NCBI GenBank assembly: GCA_020832405.1
Contig: JAFIET010000015.1
Coordinates: 1 to 60,658 of the forward strand
Source of the DNA: Balneolales bacterium
Lineage (GTDB): Bacteria; Bacteroidota; Rhodothermia; Balneolales; Cyclonatronaceae
Direction: 5' to 3'
Length of the DNA stretch: 60,658 nt
Shown here: positions 13,534-42,456 of the stretch, one piece after another
Layout of the letters: the number at the start of each line of letters is the position of its first letter
Position numbering within the stretch: position 1 is the first letter of the stretch
Notes under the pieces: generated by a model
The model's input: only the letters and a program-made list of their open reading frames with translations
Databases searched by the model: none
What the model was told of the DNA's origin: nothing
Program-made: the position numbers and the translations under genes

Positions 13534-14415
13534 TCAACCTTCATTGACAATACGCTCCCGCATATATTGGGCAACTTTCTCTTCCTTACAAAAAGCCTCA
13601 TAGTAGTTCAGCGTAGCCAAATGTAGTGCATTTAACTTTACCGGGTCACGCAAAAGCTTTCCGACCCTGAATGGCAAAGTGAGCCAGTTTACGCTTTTCA
13701 GACCGGGAAAATCAGCGTAAAACCAGTAATTATAAAGCGGTGCCGTCAGTACAATATTCCCGTACTTGCATGCTTCAAAAAAACGGTAGGTATTATTTGA
13801 CTGATGCCCTTCGGGCACAAGAGCAATTTTGGCATCCATCAGGCTTTTTGAATATTCATCTGGGCTAAGGTCGCCGGTAAATCGCCGCACAAGTTTAAAA
13901 TTAGTTTTCACCTTATTTCTTAAAAAAAGGCGGGTCCACAGCTCATAAAATTTTACCCCTGCTGCGAAAACCAAACGACGCCTGTGTACATTACCGGAGA
14001 AGAAAACGTCAACAGGTCTGTCTTCAATGGAAACAATGGCCTGTTCAATTAATGAGCCGTTGTACCCCAAGGGAATCGCAAAGCAGTTTTCAGGAGCATT
14101 ATCCGGCAGGTAGGGAGTAAAGACAGCTTTTGCCTCACAAATTTCAGCAGGTATCAGATGATTTTCATTAGACAAATAAATCACAATATCCTGTCCTCCG
14201 AATGTATACGCATACGGCTTTGACGCGCTAATTACGTACCAGTTATACGTATAAAAATCATCCCACAGTACCAGCTGCTCAAATATGTTGGAAAGATAAA
14301 CCTGTTCGAAAGGGTGAACCTTGCCGGCAGGCAGAGGTTTGTAGTTCATCTTTACTTTTAAATCTTTTTCCAGCCGGGTGTACCGGTCCAGATAGGAAAC
14401 ATTGTAATCCGTCAT
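13534..14415 (-). CDS. Exostosin-like / GT family glycosyltransferase
   Basis: A 293-residue protein with exostosin-like features: AIPLGYNGSL, PVDVFFSGNVHRRR, then KSLMDAKIALVPEGHQSNNTYR and FFEACKYGNIVL, the usual donor-site segment in which a Ser/Asn-rich loop precedes a Glu on a helix. No membrane segment is present. It is the last gene of the minus-strand exopolysaccharide run, 122 bases after the pyruvyl transferase. It probably adds a sugar to the repeat unit in the cytoplasm. The family call rests on motifs and is less sure than for the other glycosyltransferases. Confidence 0.7.
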   Translation of the reverse strand: MTDYNVSYLDRYTRLEKDLKVKMNYKPLPAGKVHPFEQVYLSNIFEQLVLWDDFYTYNWYVISASKPYAYTFGGQDIVIYLSNENHLIPAEICEAKAVFTPYLPDNAPENCFAIPLGYNGSLIEQAIVSIEDRPVDVFFSGNVHRRRLVFAAGVKFYELWTRLFLRNKVKTNFKLVRRFTGDLSPDEYSKSLMDAKIALVPEGHQSNNTYRFFEACKYGNIVLTAPLYNYWFYADFPGLKSVNWLTLPFRVGKLLRDPVKLNALHLATLNYYEAFCKEEKVAQYMRERIVNEG

Positions 14416-15758: not shown

Positions 15759-17272
15759 AGTTTTTTGTTTAACAGTGATTTAACAAGATCAACAATTCCC
15801 AGAATCCGCGTTCGCTGCGCCTGCATCGGAAACCAAAGTCCGAAATACAGCAGGCCGTAAAATACAGCATACAGCATAATTCCGGCGAACAGATTAAGCT
15901 GGAGGTTTAGTGACACCAGCCAGTACAAGCCGGCTGCTGAAAGTATTGAAATTACAGCAGGTGCCGCAATGGTTTGGAAAAAATCAATAACCCTCACAGG
16001 CGTGTCTTTGAAACAGTACATCAAAGAGGGCACGAGAATGACATAATTTACGATGGCATAGCCAATTACAAGGCCGTTCAGGCCGCCATAATAGATCCCG
16101 ACTACGAAAGCGATGGTAACGAAAACCGCATTCCAAAGGCCCCAGAAGAAAAAGCGTGTGGAGAGGCCGCAGGAAATCATCACCATGCCGCGGGTACTGG
16201 CCGTCGGCTGAATAAAGGCCGTGATGGCCAGCAATTTAAATATGATGGCGGCCTCAACCCAGTTAGGGCCCAGCAGGAAAAGGATGATGTCATCAGCTGT
16301 GATGAACAGGAACGCCACTATCGGCATGGAAAAGAATGCAAGCAGAAAAAGATACTGCTCGTAATAATGGCGGTATTTTCCCGGCTGAGTATGAAGCGAG
16401 CTCAGGGCCGGGGTCGCAACGGCGTTAAGCGGATCACGGAGCTGCGTGATGGGCAGCATCAGCAGCTGATAGGCTTTGGCATACAAGCCAAGCGCATCCG
16501 AACCGATGTGCCGGCCAATCAGGATGTTATCCAGATTCCGGGAGAAATAGTTGATCATGTTGAAGCCCGAAATGCCTGCGCCAAAGCCGATAAAATCTTT
16601 GATTGAGCGGTCAATACCAGTCCAGTTTGGGCGCCAGTCGCAGCGGAACCATAGCAGCACGGCAGCAATGCCGGGGTTCAGCACGTTTATGGCAACGAGG
16701 GCCCAGTATCCGTAGCCGGCGTAGGCCATCCACAGAGCAGGCATAAGGCTGAAAAATGAGGCTGCAATGGTAATTTCTGACAACTCCTTGAATTTCATCT
16801 GCCGGCTGAGCAGCGCCTGATGCTGCGTGGAGAGGCCACCAAAAATGGCCGCGAGCGAGTAGTAAAACGTGATGCCAAGCAGCAGCGGCTCATCATAGAA
16901 CCAAACCAGCAGCGGCCCCATCGCAACTATGGCAACGGCAAGCAGAATACTAACAAAGAAATTGAACCAGAATACCATGCTCACCAGGCGCTGATTCAGC
17001 CCGTCCATCTGTATAATGGCCTGCGCCATCCCCAGGTCTTTGAACATGAGGATGAAGCCGGTGAAGGAGGTCACCATGGCAACAAGGCCGTAATCAGCCG
17101 GCAGGAGCAGCCGGGCCAGAAAAATGGTCGTTACGATGTTGATGGTAAATGAAAACAGCTGCGCCCCGACCGTTCGCAGGCCTCCTTTTACGGACTTCCC
17201 CTTCAGGTCCTCACCGAGATGGTCCCGGTCGAACCATTTTTGCATCGGGTCAGGCGCCGGCGGATGCGTCAC
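15755..17272 (-). CDS. Wzx/WzxC-type polysaccharide flippase
   Basis: A 505-residue polytopic protein with about 12-14 membrane helices. GGLRTVGAQLFSF near residue 32 and FLARLLLPADYGLVAM are typical of the WzxC/PST polysaccharide transporter family, as is RNLDNILIGRHIGSDALGLY in the middle. It would flip lipid-linked oligosaccharide repeat units from the cytoplasmic to the periplasmic face of the inner membrane, supplying the Wzy-like polymerase encoded upstream. Its start lies 23 bases inside the end of the nitroreductase gene and its stop overlaps the pyruvyl transferase start, so the three genes are tightly coupled. Confidence 0.93.
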   Translation of the reverse strand: MTHPPAPDPMQKWFDRDHLGEDLKGKSVKGGLRTVGAQLFSFTINIVTTIFLARLLLPADYGLVAMVTSFTGFILMFKDLGMAQAIIQMDGLNQRLVSMVFWFNFFVSILLAVAIVAMGPLLVWFYDEPLLLGITFYYSLAAIFGGLSTQHQALLSRQMKFKELSEITIAASFFSLMPALWMAYAGYGYWALVAINVLNPGIAAVLLWFRCDWRPNWTGIDRSIKDFIGFGAGISGFNMINYFSRNLDNILIGRHIGSDALGLYAKAYQLLMLPITQLRDPLNAVATPALSSLHTQPGKYRHYYEQYLFLLAFFSMPIVAFLFITADDIILFLLGPNWVEAAIIFKLLAITAFIQPTASTRGMVMISCGLSTRFFFWGLWNAVFVTIAFVVGIYYGGLNGLVIGYAIVNYVILVPSLMYCFKDTPVRVIDFFQTIAAPAVISILSAAGLYWLVSLNLQLNLFAGIMLYAVFYGLLYFGLWFPMQAQRTRILGIVDLVKSLLNKKL

Positions 17273-18323
17273 GAATAATGTTCCGTTTTAGTAATTGATC
17301 CGGAGTTTTTTTCTGTGAGAACGGAATGCCGCCTTCAGAATCGGCGTAGCCAACACCGATGCACATCAGCACGCGCTCATCATCGGCAACACCGATCAGG
17401 TTTTCCATTTTTTGCTCCAGGTATTCGATATCGGGCCAGTTGATGGTAACCGAGCTGAGCCCCAGGGTTTCGAGGGCCAGAACGAAACTCATGGAAAAAA
17501 GGCCGCCATCGAGGTAAATCACGTGCCGGTCGCGTTCGCTGAGGTAAGCACTAAGCTTGCCGACCAGCAGAATCATTACGGGGATATTTTCATAAAACGG
17601 GCGGATACCCATAGGGATGGAGCCGACCATGTTTTTCATCTGTTCATCGGTGAAAATGCGGAATTCGAACGGCTGCCGGTTACAGGCCGAAGGCGAATAT
17701 GTTGCCGCCCGTACCGCTTTTTCGATCAGCTCGTAGGGAACTTCTTTTTGCTCAAAATATCGAACGGAACGGCGCTGCTGCGTAAGTTTGAGGAATTGCT
17801 CATACGTCACACCGCTCTTAACGCCCTGTGCCCGCTTATAAGGCACATAGTCAACTTTTTTAGGGTCGAAGTCGATTTTGTGCTGAATAGACAGAAACTG
17901 CTCATAGGCCGGTTTAATTTCTGCATGTTCTGTATCAACCGCATCAAAATAAGCCTGCAGCACATTGGAAGCCCACTTAAGCAGCTCGGTATCGATATCC
18001 CCGCCGGCTGTTACATGATTTGAAAGCACTTCGTAATTTTTCACCGTATCCCCGATGTAATCCCTTGCGAAAACGTTTCGGCGGTTTTTCATAATGAGAC
18101 CTTTCTCGATGCGGTGAACCTGACGGCGCAGGTGAAAGGCATTCGGCTTCTTTTCCTTCAGGGCCTGCAGGTGCATGTATTTACCCTTCAGCACTTTTTG
18201 GTGCTCACGGGAAAAATCACTTGAAAACAGGAAATAATAAAGATCGGCAAGCTTGGGGTGTTTGTGTACAATCGGCAGAAGCCAGTTGTTCTGTACATGA
18301 ATTTTGATATCGTATAGTGCCAT
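17250..18323 (-). CDS. Nitroreductase family protein with extra N-terminal domain
   Basis: A 357-residue protein. The C-terminal part from about residue 180 is a nitroreductase fold: QQRRSVRYF at the FMN-phosphate site, AATYSPSACNRQPFEF, and LGLSSVTINWPD near the flavin. Residues 1-175 are a largely helical extension with FHLRRQVHRIEKGLIMKNRR that I do not recognise by name. Nitroreductases use FMN and NAD(P)H, but several members of this fold do other redox chemistry. The gene is embedded in the exopolysaccharide operon and overlaps the flippase gene, which suggests a role in modifying or regulating the polymer, not in xenobiotic reduction. Confidence 0.85.
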   Translation of the reverse strand: MALYDIKIHVQNNWLLPIVHKHPKLADLYYFLFSSDFSREHQKVLKGKYMHLQALKEKKPNAFHLRRQVHRIEKGLIMKNRRNVFARDYIGDTVKNYEVLSNHVTAGGDIDTELLKWASNVLQAYFDAVDTEHAEIKPAYEQFLSIQHKIDFDPKKVDYVPYKRAQGVKSGVTYEQFLKLTQQRRSVRYFEQKEVPYELIEKAVRAATYSPSACNRQPFEFRIFTDEQMKNMVGSIPMGIRPFYENIPVMILLVGKLSAYLSERDRHVIYLDGGLFSMSFVLALETLGLSSVTINWPDIEYLEQKMENLIGVADDERVLMCIGVGYADSEGGIPFSQKKTPDQLLKRNIIRDASAGA

Positions 18324-18359: not shown

Positions 18360-19334
18360 CTAAAATTTGCGGATGCGCTCACCCGATACGTTGGTCACCG
18401 CGGCGTTGCCCGAAGCATCGGTTACCAGCTGCGGATTTTCTTTAACATGCCGGCGGCCCAGGTGCCAGAATACGCCCTGCCAGTAGGCTTTAAGCAGGCG
18501 GAACTCGCGCTGCATCAACAGTACAAGGGTATTCTTAGGGAAAGCAGCAATCATAAAAAACAGCAGGCTCGACAGAAACTCAAGCCCTTTGGTGTTCCGG
18601 CGCATATAGAGCAGGCGGCCGCGCACCATATAGAAAGATTTGATGACCGAATTTTTGCCGACGGTAAGCGACTCTTTGTGGTAAATTTTGGAAGTACCTA
18701 CATATTTTGCCTTGTAGCCGTGCCGTTTGGTCATTTCGCACCAGTCATGCTCTTCATAGTACAAAAAGAAGATATCGGGCATGAGGCCTACTTTTTCGGC
18801 TACTTCCCGCGATACCATCATGGCGGCACCGTGCACGAGCTCGGTATCGCGCACCACATCGTGCTGTCCGTTGTCTTCCTCGCCGTGACCGCTGTGCCCT
18901 TCCCGCATGGTAAACTTATTAATGCCCGGCGTGCCTGCAAACTGAATGATGCGGCGGCGGCCCTCCTCATCAAAGATAATTTTCGGGGAGGCCATACCAA
19001 GCTTCGGATCTTTTTGAAACTCAGCCACGAGCGGACCAATAAACCCGGGGTGAACTTCGGTATCGTTGTTCAGGAAGATGAAGTATTCGCCCTTTGCGGC
19101 CGCAACGCCGAGATTGTTGGCGCCGGCAAATCCCAGGTTTTCGGAGCTGCGGATGAGTTTCACCTCCGGAAAGCGGCTCTCAATTTCAGCCGGATCCTGC
19201 TTCGAGGCATTGTCAACCACGATGATTTCGACATTGGGCCAGCTCACCTGCTTCACCGATTCAATCATCTGAAGGGTATAAGCCAGCCCGTTGAAATTCA
19301 CGGAAATGATGGATACAAGTGGGTAATCGCTCAT
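18360..19334 (-). CDS. GT2 family glycosyltransferase (rhamnosyltransferase-like)
   Basis: A 324-residue GT-A enzyme. It opens with VSIISVNFNGLAYTLQMIES, then has IIVVDNAS, NLGFAGANNLGVA and FLNNDTEVHPG, where NND stands at the DxD metal site. A second acidic segment reads FFLYYEEHDWCEMTKRHGY. This layout is typical of WcaA/rhamnosyltransferase-like GT2 proteins that build the repeat unit on the cytoplasmic face. Short hydrophobic stretches near the C-terminus could attach it to the membrane. It sits between the polymerase and the nitroreductase with short gaps, in the same transcript. Confidence 0.9.
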   Translation of the reverse strand: MSDYPLVSIISVNFNGLAYTLQMIESVKQVSWPNVEIIVVDNASKQDPAEIESRFPEVKLIRSSENLGFAGANNLGVAAAKGEYFIFLNNDTEVHPGFIGPLVAEFQKDPKLGMASPKIIFDEEGRRRIIQFAGTPGINKFTMREGHSGHGEEDNGQHDVVRDTELVHGAAMMVSREVAEKVGLMPDIFFLYYEEHDWCEMTKRHGYKAKYVGTSKIYHKESLTVGKNSVIKSFYMVRGRLLYMRRNTKGLEFLSSLLFFMIAAFPKNTLVLLMQREFRLLKAYWQGVFWHLGRRHVKENPQLVTDASGNAAVTNVSGERIRKF

Positions 19335-19373: not shown

Positions 19374-20981
19374 TCAGGGTCTGTTGGGGTTTTTCAAATT
19401 GAGGAATTCAAACAAAGACGGCCGCTCGATCAGATGGGGTTCTTCTTCTACCTCTTCTCCGAGATCACGCCTGCGCTGCCGGTCTAATGCAAGCTTATTA
19501 TCAATTTTCAGGATATTGGTAACTCCCGCGGCACAAAGAAAGAAGATAGCATTAATGGGCGGCGAACCAATGGTTTCCTGCGGATAATTGGTAAGCATTA
19601 AGCCGTATAAAACAGCAATCAGCATCAATTGCATGATTTTAAGATCGGGATCTCTGATCTTAAAGTAATTTTTGATGCCCTCATAACCAATCAAAAATAA
19701 AAGGGAATTAAAAATGAGCAGGCCAACCCACCCGGCTTCAACAGCCGTACGAACATAACCACTATCGGGCGGAAACTGTGAAAGGGGGGAGTTTGGGGAG
19801 AACCGCTGCCCCCACACACCGGTACTGCCCAAACCACCACCAATCGGGTGTGAACGGATAAATGGTTTGATGAATGCCTGATTCATTTGCCTCACTTCAA
19901 AAGACGAATCATCACCTGGTTTAAAGGCACTCTGGAACTGCCTGATTCGGTCATTACTGAAAGGTATGTTGATGAAGCTCATAAAAAGAAACCCACCTAC
20001 AGCCGAAGCAACCAAAATTCTCTTATCTCCTTTAAAAATCACAAAGGTTACAATCGCAATAATCGGTACCACATAGGCAGCTCTGGTTCCTGATACAATC
20101 ATGCCGTAAAGCATGATAAATGCAGCAAAGACAAAAGCAATCTTAAGCCCGAGGCGTTTCACAGTTCCTGCCATATAAATAGTTGCAACCGCGCTCAGCG
20201 ACATCAGCACCCCAAACACCATCGGCCCGGAAAAATACGACCAGACCCTCACATTCCCGAACTGATAATACCTTCTGAAACGAACCGGATCTGCTGTAAG
20301 CCAGGCCCATTCAAAAGCCATGAGGCCGAAAATATCCTGATAAATACCATAGAGCGCACCAACAAATGCAAGCCCAAGCCACAAATAGATGAGTAATTTG
20401 AGGAACGCAATCGAATCGATTGTGTAGAGCAATATGTAGTACAGAATCATTATCGCCGCGATACTGCGGATCGTGTACACCCAGGCAAGCCGGGACTGCG
20501 CCCAGGGGTTGGCTACGAGCGCAAGGTTGTACAGAATCCAGATCAATACCAAAATACCGATCGGGTGCCATGCAAAAGACCAGTCGCGTTCGGTTGCCTG
20601 TTTTACAATAAGCCCGTAAAGCAGGCCTACAGTAATTGCATCAAATGAAATACCGAAAGGAACTCCCGGAATGAGGCGGGTAACACCAAGCACTGTAAAG
20701 AGAAGCACATACAGGAGTATAACCCCGAATTTCAGATTAAAAATAACCCCAAGCCCTACAGGAATACCGATAGCTGCTCCGGCTATTAAAACCATAGGCA
20801 CCACACCCAGCTTACCGGCAACAACACCCATAAACACAGCTGCCAGAGAAAAGAAAATCAGACCCGCCGTATTTTGAAGCTTTTCGCGAATAATAACTTT
20901 ATAAAGCCACCATTTGAGAAAGGCAGGCTTGTCTTTATGTTCCGGGGCTTCTTTTCTGGTATCCAGAATAAAATCAGGCAT
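19374..20981 (-). CDS. O-antigen ligase/polymerase family protein (Wzy-like)
   Basis: The frame opens at 20993 with MVSIMPDFILD; the second ATG at 20981 gives MPDFILD and is slightly preferred, though the longer form cannot be excluded. A polytopic protein of about 535 residues with some 10-12 membrane helices. It has the large periplasmic loop of the Wzy_C/O-antigen ligase domain between helices, containing FIRSHPIGGGLGSTGVWG and PDSGYVRTAVEAGWVGLL. In this context it most likely polymerises flipped repeat units. A soluble, basic and acidic C-terminal tail of about 40 residues follows the last helix. Confidence 0.87.
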   Translation of the reverse strand: MPDFILDTRKEAPEHKDKPAFLKWWLYKVIIREKLQNTAGLIFFSLAAVFMGVVAGKLGVVPMVLIAGAAIGIPVGLGVIFNLKFGVILLYVLLFTVLGVTRLIPGVPFGISFDAITVGLLYGLIVKQATERDWSFAWHPIGILVLIWILYNLALVANPWAQSRLAWVYTIRSIAAIMILYYILLYTIDSIAFLKLLIYLWLGLAFVGALYGIYQDIFGLMAFEWAWLTADPVRFRRYYQFGNVRVWSYFSGPMVFGVLMSLSAVATIYMAGTVKRLGLKIAFVFAAFIMLYGMIVSGTRAAYVVPIIAIVTFVIFKGDKRILVASAVGGFLFMSFINIPFSNDRIRQFQSAFKPGDDSSFEVRQMNQAFIKPFIRSHPIGGGLGSTGVWGQRFSPNSPLSQFPPDSGYVRTAVEAGWVGLLIFNSLLFLIGYEGIKNYFKIRDPDLKIMQLMLIAVLYGLMLTNYPQETIGSPPINAIFFLCAAGVTNILKIDNKLALDRQRRRDLGEEVEEEPHLIERPSLFEFLNLKNPNRP

Positions 20982-21123
20982 GATGCTTACCAACCCGGTT
21001 TAGGGTGAAAACCAAGCGGCACAGCACCAAATCTCCAAAACACAGATCTTCCGGAGGCAGGCAGCATAACAACTGATGCCTGACCGGATTAAGACTAAAT
21101 ATTTCGGATGCCTTACGCATCAA

Positions 21124-21300: not shown

Positions 21301-22575
21301 TCAGCTTTTTACTCTTTTGAATACACCAATATCAGCCATTACTTCCTCAATAGTAAGTCTTTTTTCATGCGTTGTTTCCATAAATGAGGTATTGGCTTTC
21401 TTAATATTCAGCATAGCCAGCAACTGTCGGGAAATGAAAAGCGGTACTGAAAACAGGGCTTTCCAGATTCGGCGGTCAGCCTGTGCCATGTACAGCGACA
21501 GCATAAAGGTGAGGCCGAATACGATTACGGAAGCGCTCATGTAGGGTGCAAAGGCAGGAGTGAGGAACCAGCTCAGTAACGCAAGAAAAGCACCGGCCAG
21601 CAGCAGCAGAAATAGCGGGGGAGTTGAAATCATTAGGCCGAAGAGCAGGGCGTTAGATGAAAGTTTCTTCACCCCGAATACCGCAAGGGCAAGAGCTTCC
21701 TTAAAGTATCCGAACCAGGAATTAATCCAGCGGGTGCGCTGTCGCTGCACCTGAGCAGCCGAGACAACTTTCTCATCATAAAGAATTGCGTTGGGCGCAT
21801 AGGCAATGATAAAATTCATCATAACCAGGTGATTCTGAAGAATTTTATCCTCAGCTACAATTACCTCGCCTTCAGCAAAGCTTTGCTGGGTTTCATCGAG
21901 CAGGCGGCTGTACAGGCTGGTTTCGATGGCCATGCCTGAGCCTGCAATGGTAGCCGAACTACCCAGCCTGAAAGGCGCAAGCCGCTGGGTGATGTGGTAA
22001 TAGTGTTCACCGGCTGCATCGATACAGGCCATGTTAGTGTTCAGGTTTTTGGCGGTCCGACGGGTCTGAACGGCCTTATAGCCTTTAAGAAGCGCTGCAT
22101 TAAGTTCCGCCAGATATTCAGGATGTGCAAGATTATCAGGATCAAAAACAAGCGTGTACGGCAGCTTATCGGCATCAATTTGCGACATAGCCATCCGAAG
22201 TGAACTCACTTTAGAATCGAGGGGCTTCTCCGGATAAATGATGCTTAGTTTATCATTGAAGGTGTCATTTTCTTCGGCTTCACAACGATCGGCTACCAGA
22301 AAAATACGATAATTACTGTAGCTCTGCTTTAGCAGGGAATCAACCAGCAAAAAAGCGAATTCTTTTTCCTTATAAGCCGTGATTACGCAGGCAATGCCTG
22401 TTTCACCTGAACTGCTGCCCGGTGTTTCAGAAGGAACAGCGCCTGAAGCAAGCGCGGCATCTTCACTGCTAACCGGCATGAGAGAAGAGGTTAAAACAAA
22501 TAAGAAAGGCAGCAGCAGATAAAAGCAGATACCAATCTGTACAGCCAGAAAAGCATATAGGATTAATTCGAGCAT
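21301..22575 (-). CDS. Membrane GT2 glycosyltransferase (processive-type, QxxRW)
   Basis: A 424-residue protein: an N-terminal membrane helix, a GT-A domain with CVITAYKEKE, LVADRC, VFDPDNLAHPEYL (DPDN at the metal site) and VAEDKIL, then QRQRTRW, which contains the QxxRW motif of cellulose-synthase-like GT2 enzymes. Three or four membrane helices follow, with an amphipathic C-terminal segment. A low-complexity Ser/Gly/Ala stretch (about residues 37-58) separates the first helix from the catalytic domain. It could be a repeat-unit transferase at the membrane; a true synthase role is possible but the Wzx/Wzy genes around it favour the former. Confidence 0.85.
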   Translation of the reverse strand: MLELILYAFLAVQIGICFYLLLPFLFVLTSSLMPVSSEDAALASGAVPSETPGSSSGETGIACVITAYKEKEFAFLLVDSLLKQSYSNYRIFLVADRCEAEENDTFNDKLSIIYPEKPLDSKVSSLRMAMSQIDADKLPYTLVFDPDNLAHPEYLAELNAALLKGYKAVQTRRTAKNLNTNMACIDAAGEHYYHITQRLAPFRLGSSATIAGSGMAIETSLYSRLLDETQQSFAEGEVIVAEDKILQNHLVMMNFIIAYAPNAILYDEKVVSAAQVQRQRTRWINSWFGYFKEALALAVFGVKKLSSNALLFGLMISTPPLFLLLLAGAFLALLSWFLTPAFAPYMSASVIVFGLTFMLSLYMAQADRRIWKALFSVPLFISRQLLAMLNIKKANTSFMETTHEKRLTIEEVMADIGVFKRVKS

Positions 22576-22641: not shown

Positions 22642-24951
22642 TCAGTCAATTTTATCAGCGGGCTGATTTAACCGGAAAGCACCTTTGATGTTGCCACGAA
22701 TGATCTGTTTGAACACACGCCTCGGATAGCTGCGTTTTTTATTTAATTCGCCGTAAACATCTTCAATCTGATTAAGATCAACTGTATTGAGAATACAGCC
22801 TTCAAAAGAAATAGGCGCATCGTTGAGTTCAACCACAAGCTCGCGGTCGAGGCCGTTTACCACTTCACCGGCCGCGAAAGAAAGAATGATACTATCGGCA
22901 AAAGGCAGCAGCTCACGGGTATTGTTGTGTTTTACCAGCATGGTTGAATCAATTATAACACTGTCGAAACCATCAATTAGGCGTTCAAAGGCAACTTCGA
23001 GCTGTGCTTTTGGCGCTATTTCATTGATGGTCAGGTTTGAAATATCACAACCGAGTACGTATATATTTTCATGCGAAGTCGGGCTTATGGCTTGTTCAAG
23101 ATTTACCTCTCCCCTTAGATACCGCTCGAACATAGGCTCACTCTGGAAGGTTTGTGTAAGTTTATTGCTGAGCATATTGGCATCAACAATCAGAACTTTA
23201 CGGCTTGTCTGTGCCAGGGCGTAACTGAGCAGAATGGAAAGAAAGGTTTTGCCTGTTTTAGGCTGCGTGCTTGATATAATTAGCCGCCGGCCTTCAGCAT
23301 AAGGCAGAATATTGCTTCGAAGATGCCTTACCAGCGACAAGGTTGCCTTTATCGTAAGGTTTGAGCTTGATTGCGCAAACATGCCGGGTATATCAAGTTC
23401 GTCGTCTTCAAGTACCGGTATGATGCCGAAAACAGGTTTTTCAAGTGCATTAGCCAGCTGCCGTGCGGTTTTAATTGTGAGATCGAAGTACTCAATGATG
23501 AATACAGACACAAGGGCAAACCCAAAGCTTCCGGCACCTGCTACCAGAATTATGAGAATTTTTTTCGACGGTAGCGGATTGCGCGGAGGCATGGCACGCT
23601 CAATCTGCTCCACCTGAGCCCCGCTGTTCAGGGTTTGCTGCTGGGTGAGGCGGAACTGGTTGAGGCGGTCGAGCATAGAAAGATAGTCGCGCTCAGCGAG
23701 GTCAATTTCGCGCACATAAGTATCCTGAATGGCCTCGAGCCGGGCAAACTCCCGGGTGAGGTTAGCCAGCCGGGTGAGTTCAAGCTGGATATTTTCGAGG
23801 GCAACTCTGGCCTGCTCTTTATCCAGAGAAAGCAGCATGCGCTGTGTGATGAGCTGTTCCCTTGCTACTCTGGGGTCGGCAATTGCCTGGTTATTCAGGT
23901 TAGCAACCGAAACATACTGAAGGTCACGAAGTTCACTTACTTCCTGTTCAAGCTGTTCAGCAAGCCCTGTCTCACCACGAATTACAGCATTCACACGGCG
24001 GCGGTTAAGCTCCGACATCTGCCGGCGGGCTGCTGCTATCTGAGCGTTGAGGGCTGCCTGTCTTCCTTCCGTGAAATCACGGCCGGAATTATCACGCAAA
24101 ACTACGTCAAGACTATCGATTAGGCTTTGGGCACCCCGGAATGTTCGGGTTTCCATTTGCCGCAGGTATTCAAAGTCAGAAATCTGAACGGCAATAGCTT
24201 TGGTTTGCTCATACAGGTTAGTAATACTATTGGCAACTTTGAAATTCTGGAGCCGCCTTGAGCGCTCATCGAGCTGAATCTCACGAAGCCTTACCTGTTC
24301 AAGGTAGAAATCGATATTAACACCGAGCAACTGATTTTGTTTGTACCGGTAGTATTTGATGAACAAATCAGCCAGTTCATTTGCAATAAAAGCAGACAGG
24401 CGCGGATTTTCTGTTTCAACCAGTATTTGTATGTAATCACTTTGGCCAAGCCGCTGAATCCTGCTGCGGTCAGAGATGGTGCCCGGATCGTAACCTTTAG
24501 CCGAAAGCAGTTCAAAAACGGTTTGCCCATAGCCCTGCGTGAGATCGAGCGGCTCTGCGGTTTCAATATAGTAAGTGAGCGAATCTATCAGGGCGGCTCT
24601 TCTTTCCGGTGATATGGCGTTAAACTCGTCGGAATCCGGCCTGAAACCGCGCCCGGGGTTTCGCAGATCATGCCGCAGCAGTGAAAAAGAAACAAGGCTG
24701 ATAACCGGCCGAGAGTTTATAAGCTCCATGAAGTTTGCATAGCGAAACGCAATCTGATCCCGGTTGATGCGTGAATCTGTACCCGGCCCGCTCTGACTCT
24801 CGATAATGCCACTTGAGATTACCGCTCTTGCACGGTACTCCCCTTCCATATTGCGCACAAAAACATACGTGATCAGCACTGTTACAATTGGTAACAATAT
24901 GAGCAGCGGCAAATACCGGTAAAGCGTTCTTAAAAATTGAATTACATCCAT
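22642..24951 (-). CDS. Wzc-like polysaccharide co-polymerase with variant tyrosine-kinase domain
   Basis: A 769-residue protein. It has an N-terminal Wzz-type membrane helix (about residues 12-32), a long periplasmic coiled-coil region rich in Arg/Glu/Gln, PPRNPLPSKK before a second helix (about 472-495), and a cytoplasmic CpsD/BY-kinase-like ATPase domain. In that domain the Walker A segment reads TQPKTGKTF in place of PGEGKST-type, Walker A' reads IVDANM in place of DxDxR, and Walker B reads VIIDST. The C-terminal tail lacks the usual tyrosine cluster. It is probably the chain-length regulator of the exopolysaccharide system. Its start lies 3 bases past the stop of the TolC-like gene. Confidence 0.88.
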   Translation of the reverse strand: MDVIQFLRTLYRYLPLLILLPIVTVLITYVFVRNMEGEYRARAVISSGIIESQSGPGTDSRINRDQIAFRYANFMELINSRPVISLVSFSLLRHDLRNPGRGFRPDSDEFNAISPERRAALIDSLTYYIETAEPLDLTQGYGQTVFELLSAKGYDPGTISDRSRIQRLGQSDYIQILVETENPRLSAFIANELADLFIKYYRYKQNQLLGVNIDFYLEQVRLREIQLDERSRRLQNFKVANSITNLYEQTKAIAVQISDFEYLRQMETRTFRGAQSLIDSLDVVLRDNSGRDFTEGRQAALNAQIAAARRQMSELNRRRVNAVIRGETGLAEQLEQEVSELRDLQYVSVANLNNQAIADPRVAREQLITQRMLLSLDKEQARVALENIQLELTRLANLTREFARLEAIQDTYVREIDLAERDYLSMLDRLNQFRLTQQQTLNSGAQVEQIERAMPPRNPLPSKKILIILVAGAGSFGFALVSVFIIEYFDLTIKTARQLANALEKPVFGIIPVLEDDELDIPGMFAQSSSNLTIKATLSLVRHLRSNILPYAEGRRLIISSTQPKTGKTFLSILLSYALAQTSRKVLIVDANMLSNKLTQTFQSEPMFERYLRGEVNLEQAISPTSHENIYVLGCDISNLTINEIAPKAQLEVAFERLIDGFDSVIIDSTMLVKHNNTRELLPFADSIILSFAAGEVVNGLDRELVVELNDAPISFEGCILNTVDLNQIEDVYGELNKKRSYPRRVFKQIIRGNIKGAFRLNQPADKID

Positions 24952-24954
24952 TTT

Positions 24955-25800
24955 CTATTCCTCATCCTCTTCATCGTGTTGTTCTTCGCTGCCATCCGTC
25001 TCATTACCGGGCTGAGCACCATCCTGCCCGTTCGTATTGCTCTCAATCAGATCGTCACCAAACACTTCTTCAAAAACCGATGCTATAGGCACACCAATTA
25101 GTTCTTCAACAGCAAACCTTGCTTTAAAAAAGTCTGTTCTTGCTGTAATCAGCCTCTGCCGGTCAAGAATAAGATACTCTTCGCCTCGCTGAAGCTGCTC
25201 AATATTCAGATCTCCCATCTCAAACCTTTCCCGCACCTGATTTACAACTGCTTGTGAGTTTTCCACTGCTTCCAGAAACAGCTGGTATAATTCAGCACTT
25301 AGCAGAAAAAAAGAATAGCGCTGAATAATTTCATTATTCATACGCTTGCGTTGTACCTCCAGCTCATACCGGTACACATCACGCTCTGATATTGCCATTC
25401 TTATACGTCCCGGAGTTCTTGCGAGCCGGCCAAGATTTATATTAAAGGCAATACCTGCCCGGTTAAAAAGATCAGGGCCGCCCTGATCCTGAAGCTGTTC
25501 GGGATAAAAGTTATAGGTAAATGTGAAGGCATCGAGCCATTCGAGCCTGGCATTACGCACCCCATAACTTGAACGTACAACAAGAGCTTCGGCAACTCTG
25601 TTGGATTCATGATTTTCCCAAGCAAGCTGTTGCAAACGTGCCACAAGTCTGGGATCATCCCCCCGTTCAACTTCCGTGCGAACATTGAGCGCCTGCCCGT
25701 GTGTTTGCATCGGTTGCAGACATACAATAAGTGCACCCATCAGAAATAGCAAGGCAAAAGAACTTACCATTGCATTGCGGGCACTAACAGGGAAAATCAT
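24955..25800 (-). CDS. Half-length TolC-family outer membrane protein
   Basis: A 281-residue protein with a signal peptide ending near HGQA. The mature part carries one copy of the TolC-like pattern: a strand segment FTFTYNFYP and FNINLGRLARTPGRI, then long helices with RRERFEMGD-like spacing (VRERFEMGDLNIEQLQRGEEY) and RTDFFKARFAVEELIGVPI. Full TolC proteins have two such halves (about 430-490 residues). The last 30 residues are highly acidic (Asp/Glu/Gln/Gly). It is directly coupled to the Wzc-like gene, and the cluster has no Wza-type exporter, so a role in polymer export is a reasonable inference. It could also be a periplasmic partner and not a channel. Confidence 0.75.
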   Translation of the reverse strand: MIFPVSARNAMVSSFALLFLMGALIVCLQPMQTHGQALNVRTEVERGDDPRLVARLQQLAWENHESNRVAEALVVRSSYGVRNARLEWLDAFTFTYNFYPEQLQDQGGPDLFNRAGIAFNINLGRLARTPGRIRMAISERDVYRYELEVQRKRMNNEIIQRYSFFLLSAELYQLFLEAVENSQAVVNQVRERFEMGDLNIEQLQRGEEYLILDRQRLITARTDFFKARFAVEELIGVPIASVFEEVFGDDLIESNTNGQDGAQPGNETDGSEEQHDEEDEE

Positions 25801-25831: not shown

Positions 25832-26968
25832 TTATAGCGACAATACCTGACGATACAGCCCTAAAGTACCAAGGGCTGTCTGTTTCCATGAAAAGCGGCC
25901 TGCATTTTCTTTTCCGTCAGCTATGAGCTGAAGCCTCAGCTTCTGATCGCGAAGTACTCTAATCGCATTATCGGCAATTTCATTAAAATTGCGGGGGTCA
26001 ACAAGCAATGCTTTTGGCCCGGCAACTTCCGGCATGGAAGAAGTATTCGATGTAATTAAAGCAGCACCGCAAGCCTGAGCTTCGATAATAGGTATTCCGA
26101 AGCTTTCTCTGAGTGAAGGGTACAAAAACAACGCGGAAGATGTGTAAATAGCTGGCAGGTCCGTATTTTTAATATAGCCGGGCAGCACAAATCTTGATTC
26201 GAGTTCGGTGGCATTTTGCTCCTTCAGCATGGTCTTGAGCCGCACGAGATCGTAATCAGCAATTACCATGTAAAGGTTTTCGGGCCCCTCCCTTAATATC
26301 CTCAGAGATGCTTTGAGTACGTTAGGGAGATTTTTTTTAGGATCCGTATTTCCGAGAAAGAAAACGAAGTTGTCCGGAAGGTTGTATAATTCTTTAACCC
26401 GCCGGATTTCTGCTGCATCACTTTCCTGAAAAAAACGGTCAGAAATGCCGTTATAAACAACATTGACCTTTGTATCGGGGCCAAAATGCTGAAGGATTCG
26501 TTTTTTTTCAAACTCTGAAACTGTGATTAGTGCACTCGCTTTCGGTACAACACGGGGAACATTCCACTTTCTGTAAAGTGTACCGAGTTTCTGATACCAG
26601 GTAGCCCCTTTTACGCCCCCCTTCTCAAGATAAATGATATCATGGAGGGTTATAATCAGAGGTACTGCCGGGCTAACGGGTGCAGTATTACTTGTGGTAT
26701 GCAGCAGATCAATCTTGTATTTGTTTAAAGCAGCGGGCAGGGCAACCTGTTCCCAATAGGGATAGGTTGTAGCCGGAAGTTCAATAATGTTCACGCAACC
26801 CTTCGAAGCCACACAAACATCACGATCAGGCTTTACAAAAACGAAAAACTCAAAGCCGTGTGGCTGCATTTCTATCAGCTGCCTCACAGTTTCAAGCGCA
26901 ACCATATCCATGCCATGTTTTTTTGGCCTAAAAATACGTTGTGCTTCAATGGCGATTCGTTTTGTCAT
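25832..26968 (-). CDS. GT4 family glycosyltransferase
   Basis: A 378-residue GT-B enzyme without membrane segments. Landmarks are LLHTTSNTAPVSPAVPLIITLHDI in the acceptor lobe (first half), ALITVSEFEKKRI, VVYNGISDRF, FFLGNTDPKKNLPNVLKA opening the donor lobe, and SLRESFGIPIIEAQACGAALIT, which holds the EX7E-type donor motif (E...E) of GT4 enzymes. This resembles mannosyl- or rhamnosyl-transferases of capsule clusters. It lies 31 bases from the TolC-like gene and 41 bases from the initiating sugar transferase and is probably the second enzyme of repeat-unit assembly. Confidence 0.93.
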   Translation of the reverse strand: MTKRIAIEAQRIFRPKKHGMDMVALETVRQLIEMQPHGFEFFVFVKPDRDVCVASKGCVNIIELPATTYPYWEQVALPAALNKYKIDLLHTTSNTAPVSPAVPLIITLHDIIYLEKGGVKGATWYQKLGTLYRKWNVPRVVPKASALITVSEFEKKRILQHFGPDTKVNVVYNGISDRFFQESDAAEIRRVKELYNLPDNFVFFLGNTDPKKNLPNVLKASLRILREGPENLYMVIADYDLVRLKTMLKEQNATELESRFVLPGYIKNTDLPAIYTSSALFLYPSLRESFGIPIIEAQACGAALITSNTSSMPEVAGPKALLVDPRNFNEIADNAIRVLRDQKLRLQLIADGKENAGRFSWKQTALGTLGLYRQVLSL

Positions 26969-27009: not shown

Positions 27010-27786
27010 CTATACATTTTCACTTTGTAACAAAGCGGGAATCGTCATAAGCATGATTTTAATGTCAAACCAAAAACTAAATTCCTCTGCGTATTTTACA
27101 TCAAGTGCTATGCGCTCTTCCTCCGTCATATCACCTTTGCCGCGCTTGGTTACCTGCCATAAACCTGTGAGTCCGGCAGGTGCGAGAAAACGTTTAGAAG
27201 CAAAATCAGTTGTAAGTTTTTCTGCCTCATAAAGCGGCAGAGGCCGGTTGCCTACAATTGACATATCACCTTTTAAAACATTCCAAAGCTGCGGTAGCTC
27301 GTCTATGCTGGTATTCCGGATAAAAGCACCGAGTTTGGTGATTCGCGGGTCGTTACCGATTTTTTTGAACGCAGCTCCGTCTTTGGTAGCCTTTTCAATA
27401 AGATAGTCGGATTCATCCACCACCTTGTCATCCATATAGAGGATAATTTTATCCTGATTTTCCTTGAGGTTTTCGCCTCCTTCTGCATCCTGCTTCCTCA
27501 TTTTCTGCTTCATTTTCTCCGCCACCTTATCGCTGCTATACATATTCAAATCTTTGAGCATATCCATTTGTTTATCAGCGTCAGGCACCATACTTCTGAA
27601 CTTATACAGATCAAAAATATGATAATTCGATCCCACTCTTTGTGAAATATAAATAGCAGGTGCTTTTGATTCCTTTTTGAGTAAAAGGTAAACAATCAGC
27701 AAAAGAGGAGAAAGCAGAATAAGTAATATACCTGCTACAAGTACATCAAAGACTCTTTTTATCAATAAATTGATTTTCCGATTCAT
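27010..27786 (-). CDS. Initiating sugar-1-phosphate transferase (WcaJ/PglC family) with insertion
   Basis: A 258-residue bacterial sugar transferase. Residues 1-38 carry a single membrane or re-entrant helix with [29 protein letters not shown] follows at about 57-66. The catalytic Asp-Glu pair is in [11 protein letters not shown] (about D162-E163), then [12 protein letters not shown] and GLTGLWQV. It moves a sugar phosphate from a nucleotide sugar to undecaprenyl phosphate, the first step of the locus. About 70 residues (72-143), Lys/Asp/Glu-rich, are inserted between FRSM and DPRITKLG. The large N-terminal CoA-binding domain of WcaJ/WbaP is absent, so this is the short PglC-like form. Confidence 0.93.
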
Positions 27787-27809
27787 GCAGGCAGACTATA
27801 ATTTAAAAT

Positions 27810-28196
27810 CTAAATGTTATTGACACGCTTCATTTTATTGAAGATTCTGTAATATAGTTCTTCGGGATTGAAGGGTTTAATTACATAATCATCGGCACCA
27901 GCCTTAAAACAACGAATCCGATCGGAGCTGCTTTCATTTGCTGACAAAATCATGAGGGGTATTCCGTCATATTTATCGTTGGTACGCAAGTACTCCATAA
28001 GCGCGTATCCGTCCATTTCAGGCATATTCAGATCAGCCACAATTACAGTTGGCAGGTTACCTTCCTCAAGCCAGTCTTTTGCTTCTTTACCATTATTTTT
28101 GGTGATAACAGTAAAATGTTTTTTTAGATAGAATTCAAGTAGTTTTCTGATACTTATTTCGTCGTCAATGATAAGAACTTTAATATGCTCGAACAT
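27810..28196 (-). CDS. Single-domain response regulator (CheY-like)
   Basis: A 128-residue receiver with no output domain. LIIDDE gives the acidic pair, Asp55 in ADLNMPEMDG is the phosphoacceptor, LSANES gives the conserved Ser/Thr position, and DDYVIKPF holds the conserved Lys. The gene lies 23 bases before the initiating sugar transferase and 26 bases after a hybrid histidine kinase, all on one strand. It probably relays signals from that kinase to the exopolysaccharide machinery by protein contact, since it cannot bind DNA itself. Confidence 0.92.
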   Translation of the reverse strand: MFEHIKVLIIDDEISIRKLLEFYLKKHFTVITKNNGKEAKDWLEEGNLPTVIVADLNMPEMDGYALMEYLRTNDKYDGIPLMILSANESSSDRIRCFKAGADDYVIKPFNPEELYYRIFNKMKRVNNI

Positions 28197-28222: not shown

Positions 28223-30277
28223 TTATGATTGTTCTAAATACCGCTTCAGTTCGCTGTTTGCCTTATTGATAAGGGCCTCGAGTTCGTCGATTAACTTTTC
28301 GATAACTTCAATATCGCCATGGCTTTTCGAAACCGTCTCAATTTGTTTGATACCCGACTTTTCAAGATCAATACCAACGTAGCCAAGTACCGGTTTCATT
28401 TTGTGTGCTGCTGCCGAAACGGCAACATAATCAGCATTTTGAACACCTTCACGCAGGGAACTGATGTGCCCTTCAGACTGATCTATAAACAGATTCACCA
28501 TTTCATCTACAAACTCTTTGTTTCCGTCTGAAATATCGCGCAGGTAAGCCAGGTCTGTTACAGTTTCATTTTCATGGTCAGACATATCGCTGTATTCTTT
28601 TGGTTGTTCATTATTACGGCTGTTGAGCCATTGCTTCAGGTTGTCGGGAAAGAAAGGTTTACGAATGATACCGTTCATGCCAACTTCCAGACAATGTTTT
28701 TCATCTTCCTTTAAAATTGAGGCAGTGAGAGCGAGTATAGTAACTTCGTTGCCACGCAATTCACGTATTTTTAGTGTTGCATCATAACCGTCCATTACAG
28801 GCATTTGAATATCCATGAGTATGATATCAAAATTTTGCTTTGTTGCTATTTCTACAGCTTCCTGCCCGTTACATGCTATCGCATACTGCGCATTCCATTT
28901 ATCGAGGATAGTGGTAACCACTTTCCTGTTAATCGGATGATCATCAACTACTAAAATACGCATATTTTCAAGAGACTCATAGCTTACCTTTTTGGGCTCC
29001 TTCCGCTGTACCGGTTTAACGGGCAGACGTATTTCAAAAAGGCAGCCTTTTCCGGCTTCGCTTTCAAGGCTGATTTGGCCGTTGAGCATATTCACCGTGT
29101 TCTTTACGATACTTAAGCCAAGGCCAATACCGCTGTACGTACGCGTAAAGCCCTGTTCTATCTGAGCATATTTTTCAAAAACATATTCCTGCTTGTCTTT
29201 GGAAATCCCGATTCCGGTATCTTTTATGCGGATGATGAGCCAGTGATGATCACCTGCGGTTTCAGAATCAAGGTTGGTTGTTACCTGCCCGTGTGAAGTA
29301 AATTTAATCGCATTATCAGTGAGGTTTTTGATGATGTTGCGCATTTTCACAAAATCTGATTCTATCAAATCAGGTACTCTGTCACTGATGTTTACCTCAT
29401 ATCGCAGGCCTTTATCCATGGCTTTTTCCCGAAAAAGTTCCATAACTGCCCGAATGTCTTCGCGAACATCAATGGTATCGGTCGCCAGCTGACTCACTTC
29501 TGTTTCTGAACTTGAAAAATCAGCAATATCAGACAGTACTTCCATCAGGTTCGCAGCAGAAAGCTTAATTGACTCCAGAAAAGATCTTTTACTGATATCA
29601 TTTTCAAGGTCTTCAAGCTGCTCTGCAAGGCCTACGATACCGTTCATTGGTGTTCGTATTTCGTGGCTCAGGTTGGCAAGAATCTGATTCTTTGAATCCA
29701 GTTGTGCACTGTAGGAATGGTTTGTGATTTCCAGTTTGTGGATCTGTCTGCGTGATTTAATGATATTAAAAAGCCAGCGGCCGATTAACCTGAACTCATC
29801 CTGATGAAAACTTGCAGCACGTAATTCGTCGTTTTTATCACGCGTGCGCTCAAATGCAGCGAAACCCTCGAGCTGATTATCGTGTAGGTAAGGCACTATT
29901 ACCACATATTTGATCCCCATTGCTTCCAGAACTTCAGCCTCAACATCCGGAAATGAATCAGGGGGGCCGTAAAGTACTTTATTCTCCGAAAGAAGCTTTG
30001 CCCACCGCTCAAAGTAGGGGTTCACAGGTATTTCGGATGCATCAAGGTTACCCTCTTCAATTTGACCACTCTCCTGCCATTGCAGCATTTGAGAAAAAAA
30101 GGCTGAGTCTTCAGCCTTTTCCGAGCGCTCATGCGTGATATCATAAAGCGTGATCCGGTCGAAATCCACTTCTTCAGCTATGCCAGAAAGCTTTTGACTA
30201 AGTTCGTTTAGAAAAGTCTGATGACCAGCCGCTATATTAAGCGAAGATATAAGCTGATCAATAAGTTGGTAACGCAT
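28223..30277 (-). CDS. Hybrid histidine kinase (GAF-like - HisKA - HATPase - receiver - HPt)
   Basis: A 684-residue cytoplasmic protein without membrane helices. Residues 1-180 form a GAF-like sensor. The H-box NLSHEIRTPMNG has His205. The ATPase domain has NLTDNAIKFTSHG, DTGIGI and GIGLGLSIVK. The receiver (about 440-555) has LVVDDHPINRK and MDIQMPVMDG. A C-terminal HPt domain contains AAHKMKPVLGYVG. This is a complete phosphorelay in one chain. It starts the minus-strand run containing a lone receiver and the exopolysaccharide genes, with short gaps, so it likely controls production of the polymer. The sensed signal is unknown and would be intracellular. Confidence 0.93.
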   Translation of the reverse strand: MRYQLIDQLISSLNIAAGHQTFLNELSQKLSGIAEEVDFDRITLYDITHERSEKAEDSAFFSQMLQWQESGQIEEGNLDASEIPVNPYFERWAKLLSENKVLYGPPDSFPDVEAEVLEAMGIKYVVIVPYLHDNQLEGFAAFERTRDKNDELRAASFHQDEFRLIGRWLFNIIKSRRQIHKLEITNHSYSAQLDSKNQILANLSHEIRTPMNGIVGLAEQLEDLENDISKRSFLESIKLSAANLMEVLSDIADFSSSETEVSQLATDTIDVREDIRAVMELFREKAMDKGLRYEVNISDRVPDLIESDFVKMRNIIKNLTDNAIKFTSHGQVTTNLDSETAGDHHWLIIRIKDTGIGISKDKQEYVFEKYAQIEQGFTRTYSGIGLGLSIVKNTVNMLNGQISLESEAGKGCLFEIRLPVKPVQRKEPKKVSYESLENMRILVVDDHPINRKVVTTILDKWNAQYAIACNGQEAVEIATKQNFDIILMDIQMPVMDGYDATLKIRELRGNEVTILALTASILKEDEKHCLEVGMNGIIRKPFFPDNLKQWLNSRNNEQPKEYSDMSDHENETVTDLAYLRDISDGNKEFVDEMVNLFIDQSEGHISSLREGVQNADYVAVSAAAHKMKPVLGYVGIDLEKSGIKQIETVSKSHGDIEVIEKLIDELEALINKANSELKRYLEQS

Positions 30278-30557: not shown

Positions 30558-32783
30558 TTACTCATTTCTAATATACAACAAGCTTTCTTCGCGGTTGCCG
30601 ATCAGATCCAGGTACCAGTCTATACTCGATTCACCACCCGACTCTGCCCAGTTGCGGAAGTTCAGATAAGCATTGGTCAAATCGACACCTTCAAGCGGGT
30701 AAGGGATGCTTTCAGATACGTGAATCGCCCAGTTCAGGTTTTCATGGCTCTTGTAAAAGCGACCAGCTGCAACGTTTGTGTTATCATCGTTTGTGCCAAA
30801 CAATTCAGCATCAGCAAGGTCAGTAGGGGGCATACCGGGAAGGTGAACTTCTCTGCCGCGTTCAAGCACACGGAAGGAAAAGATATTGAACGGAGATGTT
30901 CCCAGAACAGATCGGTCAACTGCATTTTCGAAGGTAATAGTCACCGTAAATTCATGATACGGAACATGGCGGTCAGGATTCACCGTGTTCTGATAACGGC
31001 CAAGCGTACGGGTTGCATCGTCAGCAAAGATGATCACAGCATTCGATTGCCCGGCTTCAGTACCGTTAGGGTTCAGTGTTACGATACCGCTTCCAATTTC
31101 CTGACCTGTTACCGACTGTACAGCAGATGGGGGCACGGGCAGCATCACACCAACACCACTGCTCACCGATGCTCCGGTAGCACGAACCCGGATATCAAAG
31201 ATCATATCTTTTACCTCGTTGGCCGCATTGGTAACTTCGTTCAGCTTGTAATCGATTACAAGGTCGTTCATGTCGTAGTCGCCAAGGCCGGGCCAGAGGT
31301 CTTCAAAGGCCATGGTGGCATAGGTGTTTGCAGCAGGGAAGTAATTATTAAACGCACGGAGCGGATCATCGGGATAGGCATCTTCATCGTCGGGTACACC
31401 ATCACCATCAGAATCTACAACACCCGCCGTACCCGCACCCGGGTTACAAGACGACTCCGGAATAAAGGCATCACAAAAAGTAACCGAACTCGCGATTGTT
31501 CCGAAATTGGTTATGCCGTTGCCGGATTCAACACACAGGTCAATGAGATTCTGAATATTACCGCCGCTGTTAACCGTTGCGGAATTTGCAATATTGAGGC
31601 GGGCATAGGCCGAAGATGGTCCGGCAAGGGGGCTGTTTGCCGTAAAATACTGCGCAACAACAAGGGCTCCCGGGCCCATTTCATTAAAAATGCCGCTGCC
31701 GGAGTTGAGCACAAAGGGGCCGTTAATATTCAGGAAATCATTATTCACGAACTGTGCATTTTGCTGGAAGTTCTGACCGACTTCAAACGAACACGAGTTT
31801 GTGGTTAATGCAGTTGAGTTATTCGAGAAAGTGTTGTTAACCGTAATAAACCCTTCATTGGTGAGATTGCTGCCGTTATTATTCAAGTTGCCGCTCACTG
31901 TCAGGAAGCCTTCATTATTGAATGTGCCTCCATTATTGATTTCAAGATTTTCGGCATTAAATATTCCGTAATTATTGATGAGATAGCTAAAACCCAGCGT
32001 AGTTTGAGTCAGATTGACGGTACCAAAGTTGTCAAACTTAGATTGGGCGTTATTGATAGCAAAATTACCGGAGTTCAGAACACCGGCAGTTCCAATTTCA
32101 AAATTTGGGCGTGCCCCTCCCCATGCTTCAACTGCGGTAACATTAAGCTCACCGCAAACGCGCAGTTCAGCATCAGTTCCTCCACCTATGAAGCGAACAT
32201 TTCCGCTGAAGGATGAACCCTCAGCCATACATACAATCTGGTTACTTTCAACTATGAGGGTTGTTGACCATCCTTCATCACTTGCTATTGCACCGGTTAA
32301 TACCCGGTCGCATCCTGCATCGCAGCCATTAGGCACGCTGGCAAGCCCGGCATCACCAATACCACGTTGTTGCGTTTCGGCTCCTGCTGCTACAGTAAAG
32401 GTACCCCCTCTGCCAATTTCCAGCTTCTGGAATGTGGTGAGCTCGCCTGGCGATTTGGTTGCAACCCAAACGGAGTTCAGATGAGCCGGTATGCTCATAG
32501 TAAACTGCCGGCTGTTGCCATTATTAATTGCAGCGCGCTGAAGGATACGCCCGTTATCGGCTGGGTGAGCTGAAAGGATCGTTGCGATTATATCACCCTG
32601 TATTCCGCCGCGCTCCACATTTATGGTAATCTCGTTCGTTGTATTAAAAGTGAAGCCCGCCGGGATACGCATACTTCTGAAACCATCTTTATCGGAATCC
32701 TTTGGATCCGATATACTGTGCGAACAGGCCGTTCCCAGCAGCAGCGCAATAAACACTATCAGGTATATTTTAAAAACTTTCAT
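30558..32783 (-). CDS. LruC-domain surface lipoprotein
   Basis: A 741-residue protein with a lipoprotein signal; the lipobox LGTAC gives Cys20 as the acylated residue. The N-terminal domain is followed by a long Asn/Gly-rich stretch (about residues 210-420) with many N-x-G-x-F/L turns that looks like a right-handed beta-helix. A calcium-type loop, DSDGDGVPDDEDAYPDDP, comes next. The C-terminal 260 residues begin FNNYFPAANTYATMAFEDLWP and DYDMNDLVIDY and fit the LruC (DUF4842-related) domain seen in outer-membrane and biofilm-type proteins of Bacteroidota and Leptospira. A surface or matrix role is likely. It is downstream of a LytTR regulator on the same strand. Confidence 0.85.
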   Translation of the reverse strand: MKVFKIYLIVFIALLLGTACSHSISDPKDSDKDGFRSMRIPAGFTFNTTNEITINVERGGIQGDIIATILSAHPADNGRILQRAAINNGNSRQFTMSIPAHLNSVWVATKSPGELTTFQKLEIGRGGTFTVAAGAETQQRGIGDAGLASVPNGCDAGCDRVLTGAIASDEGWSTTLIVESNQIVCMAEGSSFSGNVRFIGGGTDAELRVCGELNVTAVEAWGGARPNFEIGTAGVLNSGNFAINNAQSKFDNFGTVNLTQTTLGFSYLINNYGIFNAENLEINNGGTFNNEGFLTVSGNLNNNGSNLTNEGFITVNNTFSNNSTALTTNSCSFEVGQNFQQNAQFVNNDFLNINGPFVLNSGSGIFNEMGPGALVVAQYFTANSPLAGPSSAYARLNIANSATVNSGGNIQNLIDLCVESGNGITNFGTIASSVTFCDAFIPESSCNPGAGTAGVVDSDGDGVPDDEDAYPDDPLRAFNNYFPAANTYATMAFEDLWPGLGDYDMNDLVIDYKLNEVTNAANEVKDMIFDIRVRATGASVSSGVGVMLPVPPSAVQSVTGQEIGSGIVTLNPNGTEAGQSNAVIIFADDATRTLGRYQNTVNPDRHVPYHEFTVTITFENAVDRSVLGTSPFNIFSFRVLERGREVHLPGMPPTDLADAELFGTNDDNTNVAAGRFYKSHENLNWAIHVSESIPYPLEGVDLTNAYLNFRNWAESGGESSIDWYLDLIGNREESLLYIRNE

Positions 32784-39204: not shown

Positions 39205-39265
39205 GCGGTACATCAAACATCACTTCCGTTCTGAAACCGATTACCCGCACGCCTGAAATTTTCTT

Positions 39266-42409: not shown

Positions 42410-42456
42410 CAAGCCGCTCCCCCCATCTCCCCTCCGCAACACGCAACACATCTCTT

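Follow-up and report, generated by a model that had tools for sequence, protein, structure and literature searches.

Gene content of the locus

The window analysed in this study was a single stretch of DNA of 60,658 nt. Pfam analysis of the operon on its reverse strand revealed genes for an initiating phosphoglycosyl transferase (PGT), a single-domain response regulator and a hybrid kinase, together with several glycosyltransferases, a Wzy polymerase, a Wzx flippase and a pyruvyl transferase. Because the PGT, glycosyltransferases, Wzy, Wzx and pyruvyl transferase occurred together in the operon, it was read from its domain content as a Wzx/Wzy exopolysaccharide locus. The features were as follows, with a TolC-type protein here called half-TolC.

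14538-15758, reverse strand: polysaccharide pyruvyl transferase (Pfam)
15755-17272, reverse strand: Wzx-type flippase (Polysacc_synt_3, Pfam E 1.3e-84)
17250-18323, reverse strand: nitroreductase-domain protein inside the polysaccharide operon (Pfam)
18360-19334, reverse strand: family-2 glycosyltransferase (Pfam)
19374-20993, reverse strand: Wzy-type polymerase, a recurrent partner of half-TolC (Wzy_C, Pfam E 2.3e-10)
21301-22575, reverse strand: family-2 glycosyltransferase that recurs in half-TolC loci (Pfam and locus comparison)
22642-24951, reverse strand: Wzc-like polysaccharide co-polymerase, 769 aa, without a tyrosine tail and with an altered Walker A' (HMM, Foldseek, motif tables)
24955-25800, reverse strand: half-TolC, 281 aa, with a signal peptide, one OEP repeat and an acidic tail (Pfam OEP, AlphaFold, Foldseek)
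24958-25065, reverse strand: acidic C-terminal tail of half-TolC, lineage-specific and outside the conserved family (alignment A1)
25096-25641, reverse strand: lone OEP/TolC repeat of half-TolC (Pfam, AlphaFold)
25832-26968, reverse strand: group-1 glycosyltransferase (Pfam)
27010-27786, reverse strand: PGT (Bac_transf, Pfam E 5.1e-60)
27810-28196, reverse strand: single-domain response regulator adjoining the PGT (Pfam Response_reg)
28223-30277, reverse strand: hybrid histidine kinase with an Hpt domain (Pfam)

The half-TolC gene was separated by 3 nt from the Wzc-like gene, which lay downstream. The first-pass annotation had described a single-repeat TolC-like protein at this distance from a Wzc-like gene, in a locus without a Poly_export/SLBB (Wza-type) gene. 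Both descriptions were borne out, since the two open reading frames were present with one Pfam OEP repeat in half-TolC, and no match to Poly_export or SLBB genes was found anywhere in the window.

The nitroreductase-domain gene at 17250-18323 was also kept in two genomes of the same genus, and the adjacency of the PGT and the response regulator (27010-28196) recurred in most half-TolC loci. A single-domain receiver gene is likewise found in the PGT locus of the EpsW/EpsZ control system of Myxococcus (PMC12802240), which belongs to a different phylum; here the two genes directly adjoined each other, and the likeness is one of gene arrangement alone. An LruC/DUF4842 protein and an adjoining LytTR regulator were located at 30558-32783, and LruC-domain genes recurred beside half-TolC loci of other families (L037, L119, L121 and L124). 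At 37999-45591, an HlyD-type adaptor gene was followed by two AcrB-type pump genes, with no OEP gene alongside.

Half-TolC has a single TolC-type repeat

The OEP repeat of half-TolC (residues 54-235) matched positions 3-187 of the 187-position Pfam profile with an E-value of 1.8e-16, between a signal peptide at approximately residues 1-36 and an acidic tail at approximately residues 246-281. Poly_export (PF02563) and SLBB domains were absent from the protein in the Pfam analysis. The homologous repeat, the helix-strand-strand-helix order, the signal peptide and the conserved turn ending the long helices are shared with the TolC/OprM family (PF02321). However, TolC-type outer-membrane factors carry two repeats per chain, whereas half-TolC carries one. 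In the source genome, two OEP repeats were found in each of the six other OEP channel proteins and one only in half-TolC.

The AlphaFold model of half-TolC (pLDDT 85.3) showed the order helix, helix, strand, strand, long helix, helix, with predicted helices at residues 50-63, 65-91, 123-194 and 200-235 and predicted strands at residues 92-98 and 115-121. These strands were short, with 7 residues each. The best 38 Foldseek matches of the model were all TolC-family channels with a probability of 1.00, in agreement with the TolC similarity proposed in the first-pass annotation. A profile of the half-TolC family matched the solved structures of OprJ (1.6e-7) and TolC (8.6e-6), and OprM was also matched. 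Comparison of half-TolC with OprM gave a VIA Z of about 11 over 186 residues, a value that unrelated helical proteins such as F-BAR also reach; because VIA Z is weak for helical proteins, the fold assignment rests on Foldseek and sequence homology. By these two measures, the half-TolC repeat is homologous to the TolC family and has a TolC-like predicted fold.

Among the best conserved stretches was FEkGE.tf..YN (residues 193-204), located at the turn joining the two long helices. In TolC, efflux adaptors dock at the corresponding periplasmic end of the long helices. The acidic tail, to which attention had been drawn earlier, was present in the window protein but was not a conserved feature of the family. 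It occurred in only 2 of 22 aligned homologues, from the source genome and one same-genus genome (alignment A1), and was ruled out as the functional core on account of this lineage specificity.

About 100 homologues from at least 14 families had the same single-repeat length (roughly 220-300 aa) and the conserved motifs. When full-size TolC proteins of other genomes were searched with the half-TolC HMM, two matches were found in 19/20. An unrooted tree of repeats placed half-TolC in one clade (support 0.93), with both the N- and the C-halves of full-size TolC outside it.

The half-TolC and wzc genes are paired across the phylum

Among 394 genomes of the same phylum, 23 close half-size homologues of half-TolC were found, and 16 more distant ones were taken forward from a profile search. 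The resulting set of 38 loci chosen by half-TolC (22 + 16) contained Wzc in 34 loci, Wzy in most and an OPX protein (Wza-type) in none. For the reverse test, 80 named loci were picked by Wzc alone from Mucilaginibacter, Pedobacter, Chitinophagaceae, Cyclobacteriaceae, Ignavibacteria and others. Half-TolC was found in 75 of them, and two longer or FKBP-fused versions brought the count to 77/80. In 62 loci, half-TolC lay -1 to +5 nt upstream of wzc, so the adjacency noted in the first-pass annotation did prove to be conserved elsewhere; in several loci it was placed after wzy and not beside wzc. Three Wzc-chosen loci were without half-TolC, two of them on short contigs, and it was absent from the 20-kb Wzc locus L204. 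In one locus (L197, 11177-12316), an FKBP peptidyl-prolyl isomerase domain was fused to the C-terminus of half-TolC.

By the OPX HMMs, all 118 half-TolC or Wzc-chosen loci were free of OPX proteins (0/80 for the latter). Among 27 control loci chosen by OPX, half-TolC was found in none and Wzc in 15, and Wzc was found in none of 20 control loci chosen by full-size TolC. These comparisons of gene content indicate that half-TolC and Wzc have stayed paired in 14 or more families of the Bacteroidota-type phylum and that the sampled half-TolC and OPX loci do not overlap.

A tblastn search of plasmids with half-TolC as the query returned nothing. With Wzc as the query, two plasmid copies of the system were found, both within Bacteroidota/Rhodothermota, in Salinibacter ruber M8 (pSR84) and a Flammeovirgaceae strain, and in both half-TolC was annotated as "TolC family protein". 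In the pSR84 copy (L261, 6716-11067), the Wzc had no Pfam kinase-domain match. Three inspected plasmid matches from other phyla had no TolC-annotated gene near Wzc, and one of them had an OPX gene.

The partner Wzc belongs to a separate clade

The window Wzc contained an AAA_31 kinase-type domain (Pfam E 8.9e-9), and an HMM of its relatives matched solved Wzc with an E-value of 9.7e-41. In its predicted model (pLDDT 84.7), a transmembrane segment, a periplasmic helical domain, a second transmembrane segment and a P-loop domain followed one another in one chain, as in Wzc/PCP-2 proteins, and the top Foldseek matches were Wzc, including Wza-Wzc complexes. The kinase motifs were altered. The Walker A' read D-A-N-M-L and departed from the DxDxR of BY-kinases. 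The tyrosine-rich C-terminal tail typical of Wzc/PCP-2 was absent, with 2 tyrosines in the last 40 residues versus 13 in the second Wzc of the same genome.

These features extended to its relatives. A tree of 75 Wzc proteins split them without exception (support 1.0) into 15 encoded in OPX or SLBB loci and 60 encoded in half-TolC or matching loci. The position of the second Walker A' Asp was occupied by D in 15/15 OPX-linked proteins and by N in 42/60 half-TolC-linked ones, the Arg of DxDxR was R in 14/15 OPX-linked proteins, and the median number of tail tyrosines was 9 in the OPX-linked versus 1 in the half-TolC-linked group. The P-loop Lys was retained in 59/60 half-TolC-linked proteins. 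By tree and motif, half-TolC-linked Wzc thus forms a clade of its own, in which the kinase signatures are altered.

The Wzc of E. coli is an octamer, is regulated through its tyrosine tail and docks on the Wza octamer (PMC11986026, PMC12881504). Judged from their sequences, half-TolC-linked Wzc proteins cannot use a regulatory tyrosine tail in this way. The tail was lost and DxDxR usually lost; therefore, regulation by tail phosphorylation is improbable, and these proteins probably stand outside the phosphorylation cycle known for Wzc and would have lost kinase cycling. A non-canonical BY-kinase-type protein also occurs in an exopolysaccharide pathway of Myxococcus, the tyrosine pseudokinase EcpK (PMC12004946); that pathway has an OPX/β-barrel exit, whereas the altered kinase domain described here lies in the Wzc of a half-TolC system.

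Proposed export route

We consider it likely that the outer-membrane exit of this Wzx/Wzy exopolysaccharide pathway is a ring of half-TolC that replaces Wza and docks on the non-canonical Wzc. A different exit had been suggested in the first-pass annotation, and the suggestion gained support from the fold, the homology, the conserved pairing, the non-overlap with OPX loci and the separate Wzc clade. The short predicted strands, the loci with half-TolC after wzy and the L204 locus without half-TolC count against this reading. The PGT would start the repeat unit and the glycosyltransferases would lengthen it; Wzx would then flip the unit and Wzy polymerise it, with the Wzc-like co-polymerase, which retains an ATP-binding P-loop, organising the process. 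Each half-TolC subunit would insert two β-strands into an outer-membrane barrel and contribute its long helices to a periplasmic α-barrel, and the periplasmic end of the latter would dock on the Wzc octamer at its long helical hairpin to form a continuous duct through which the polymer could pass. Since each half-TolC has one repeat, more copies per ring would be needed than in TolC. Six copies would restore the 12-strand barrel of TolC, and eight copies, with 16 strands, would match the Wzc octamer.

The E. coli Wza-Wzc machine (PMC12881504, PMC8285477) shares with this locus the Wzx/Wzy pathway, the Wzc architecture and a gene for an outer-membrane partner near wzc. It differs in that the half-TolC locus has no Poly_export/SLBB protein and its Wzc lacks the tyrosine tail and, in the family, usually DxDxR. 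The OPX/β-barrel translocon (EpsY/EpsX, VpsN/VpsM), described as a third export type, retains an OPX protein (PMC9601211). This composite translocon is likewise a non-Wza answer to the outer-membrane step of Wzx/Wzy export, but it combines a short OPX protein with an 18-strand barrel, whereas no OPX was found in half-TolC loci with the OPX HMMs.

OPX genes elsewhere and alternative explanations

The source genome (3.96 Mb, 188 contigs) did not lack OPX proteins. The genome-wide search for Wza called for by the first-pass annotation found one Poly_export/SLBB protein on contig C116 (618 aa). On contig C48 (L008, 5503-8597), the second Wzc, with complete kinase motifs and a tyrosine tail, was followed by an SLBB-only protein of 231 aa that had no Pfam match to Poly_export. 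One or more OPX genes were present somewhere in 24/24 genomes tested, and the absence of Wza from the genome was accordingly dropped as an argument. On C116 (L002, 2845-5404), the OPX gene adjoined a gene for a 186-aa predicted β-barrel protein and lay between housekeeping genes, those for NAD kinase and PriA.

The main alternative is that the polymer leaves through the C116 OPX protein, with half-TolC stabilising Wzc as an accessory factor in the periplasm or outer membrane. The OPX genes in the source genome and in all genomes tested are in keeping with it. Nevertheless, the C116 gene lies outside any polysaccharide locus, and the 118 half-TolC or matching Wzc loci are free of OPX. Many OPX genes elsewhere in these genomes adjoin their own canonical-clade Wzc. 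In addition, the same-genus genome G100 has a related OPX of about 580 aa, with neither Wzc nor half-TolC near it and no half-TolC match in the genome, which implies that this OPX does not track the half-TolC system. Because of the canonical Wzc partners and the G100 OPX, we regard exit through an OPX protein in trans as unlikely.

A somewhat less probable alternative is that an extra, unrecognised β-barrel protein of each locus forms the pore and half-TolC only bridges it to Wzc, a division of labour between pore and bridge that does exist in the composite OPX/β-barrel system (PMC9601211). The operon genes between 14.5 and 30.3 kb, except half-TolC, fall in cytoplasmic or inner-membrane families, and a TolC-type strand pair is predicted in half-TolC itself, both of which speak against this explanation. 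The window also contains one gene, at 13534-14415, without a confident family assignment.

Half-TolC might instead serve as the outer-membrane partner of a nearby efflux pump such as the RND pump at 37999-45591. It belongs to the OEP family, whose TolC/OprM members work with RND, ABC or MFS pumps and an HlyD-type adaptor, and at a distance of 12 kb the window encodes the adaptor and two AcrB-type pumps with no OEP gene beside them. However, the partner of half-TolC is Wzc, which its relatives accompany in 77/80 loci chosen regardless of half-TolC; the genome has full-size OEP proteins available, and Wzc is absent from full-size OEP loci. This conserved pairing led us to reject a role with the RND pump as very improbable. 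Half the normal length could also suggest a truncated, decaying and functionless TolC gene, an idea with almost no probability left that is refuted by the conservation of motifs in about 100 same-length homologues from at least 14 families and by the clade that these repeats form apart from the halves of full-size TolC. An outer-membrane ring of half-TolC docked on Wzc is retained as the preferred explanation.

Implications

The Wzx/Wzy export systems known so far rely on OPX proteins, with or without a β-barrel, and surveys have searched for the OPX domain. The survey that described composite translocons started from PF02563 (PMC9601211), so loci without OPX were invisible to it, and the main texts of PMC9601211 and PMC9603273 do not mention TolC. 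No description of a half-TolC/Wzc system was found in the open-access literature searched. Since the pairing recurs in at least 14 families, it probably represents a different and so far undescribed route of polysaccharide exit. More tentatively, half-TolC and its tail-less Wzc may constitute a fourth class of outer-membrane polysaccharide exit, built on a homo-oligomeric ring of single-repeat subunits, possibly an octamer matching the Wzc octamer, and half-TolC may preserve the state of TolC before its duplication.

If the proposed route is true, the way in which many Bacteroidota export polysaccharide has escaped notice or been mistaken for drug efflux, because the gene was called only "TolC family protein" where its annotation was read. 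It would also mean that a channel of the TolC type is able to conduct a polymer and that tyrosine-tail cycling is probably dispensable for Wzc function. A natural single-repeat TolC would, moreover, offer a means to test the evolution of these channels by duplication.
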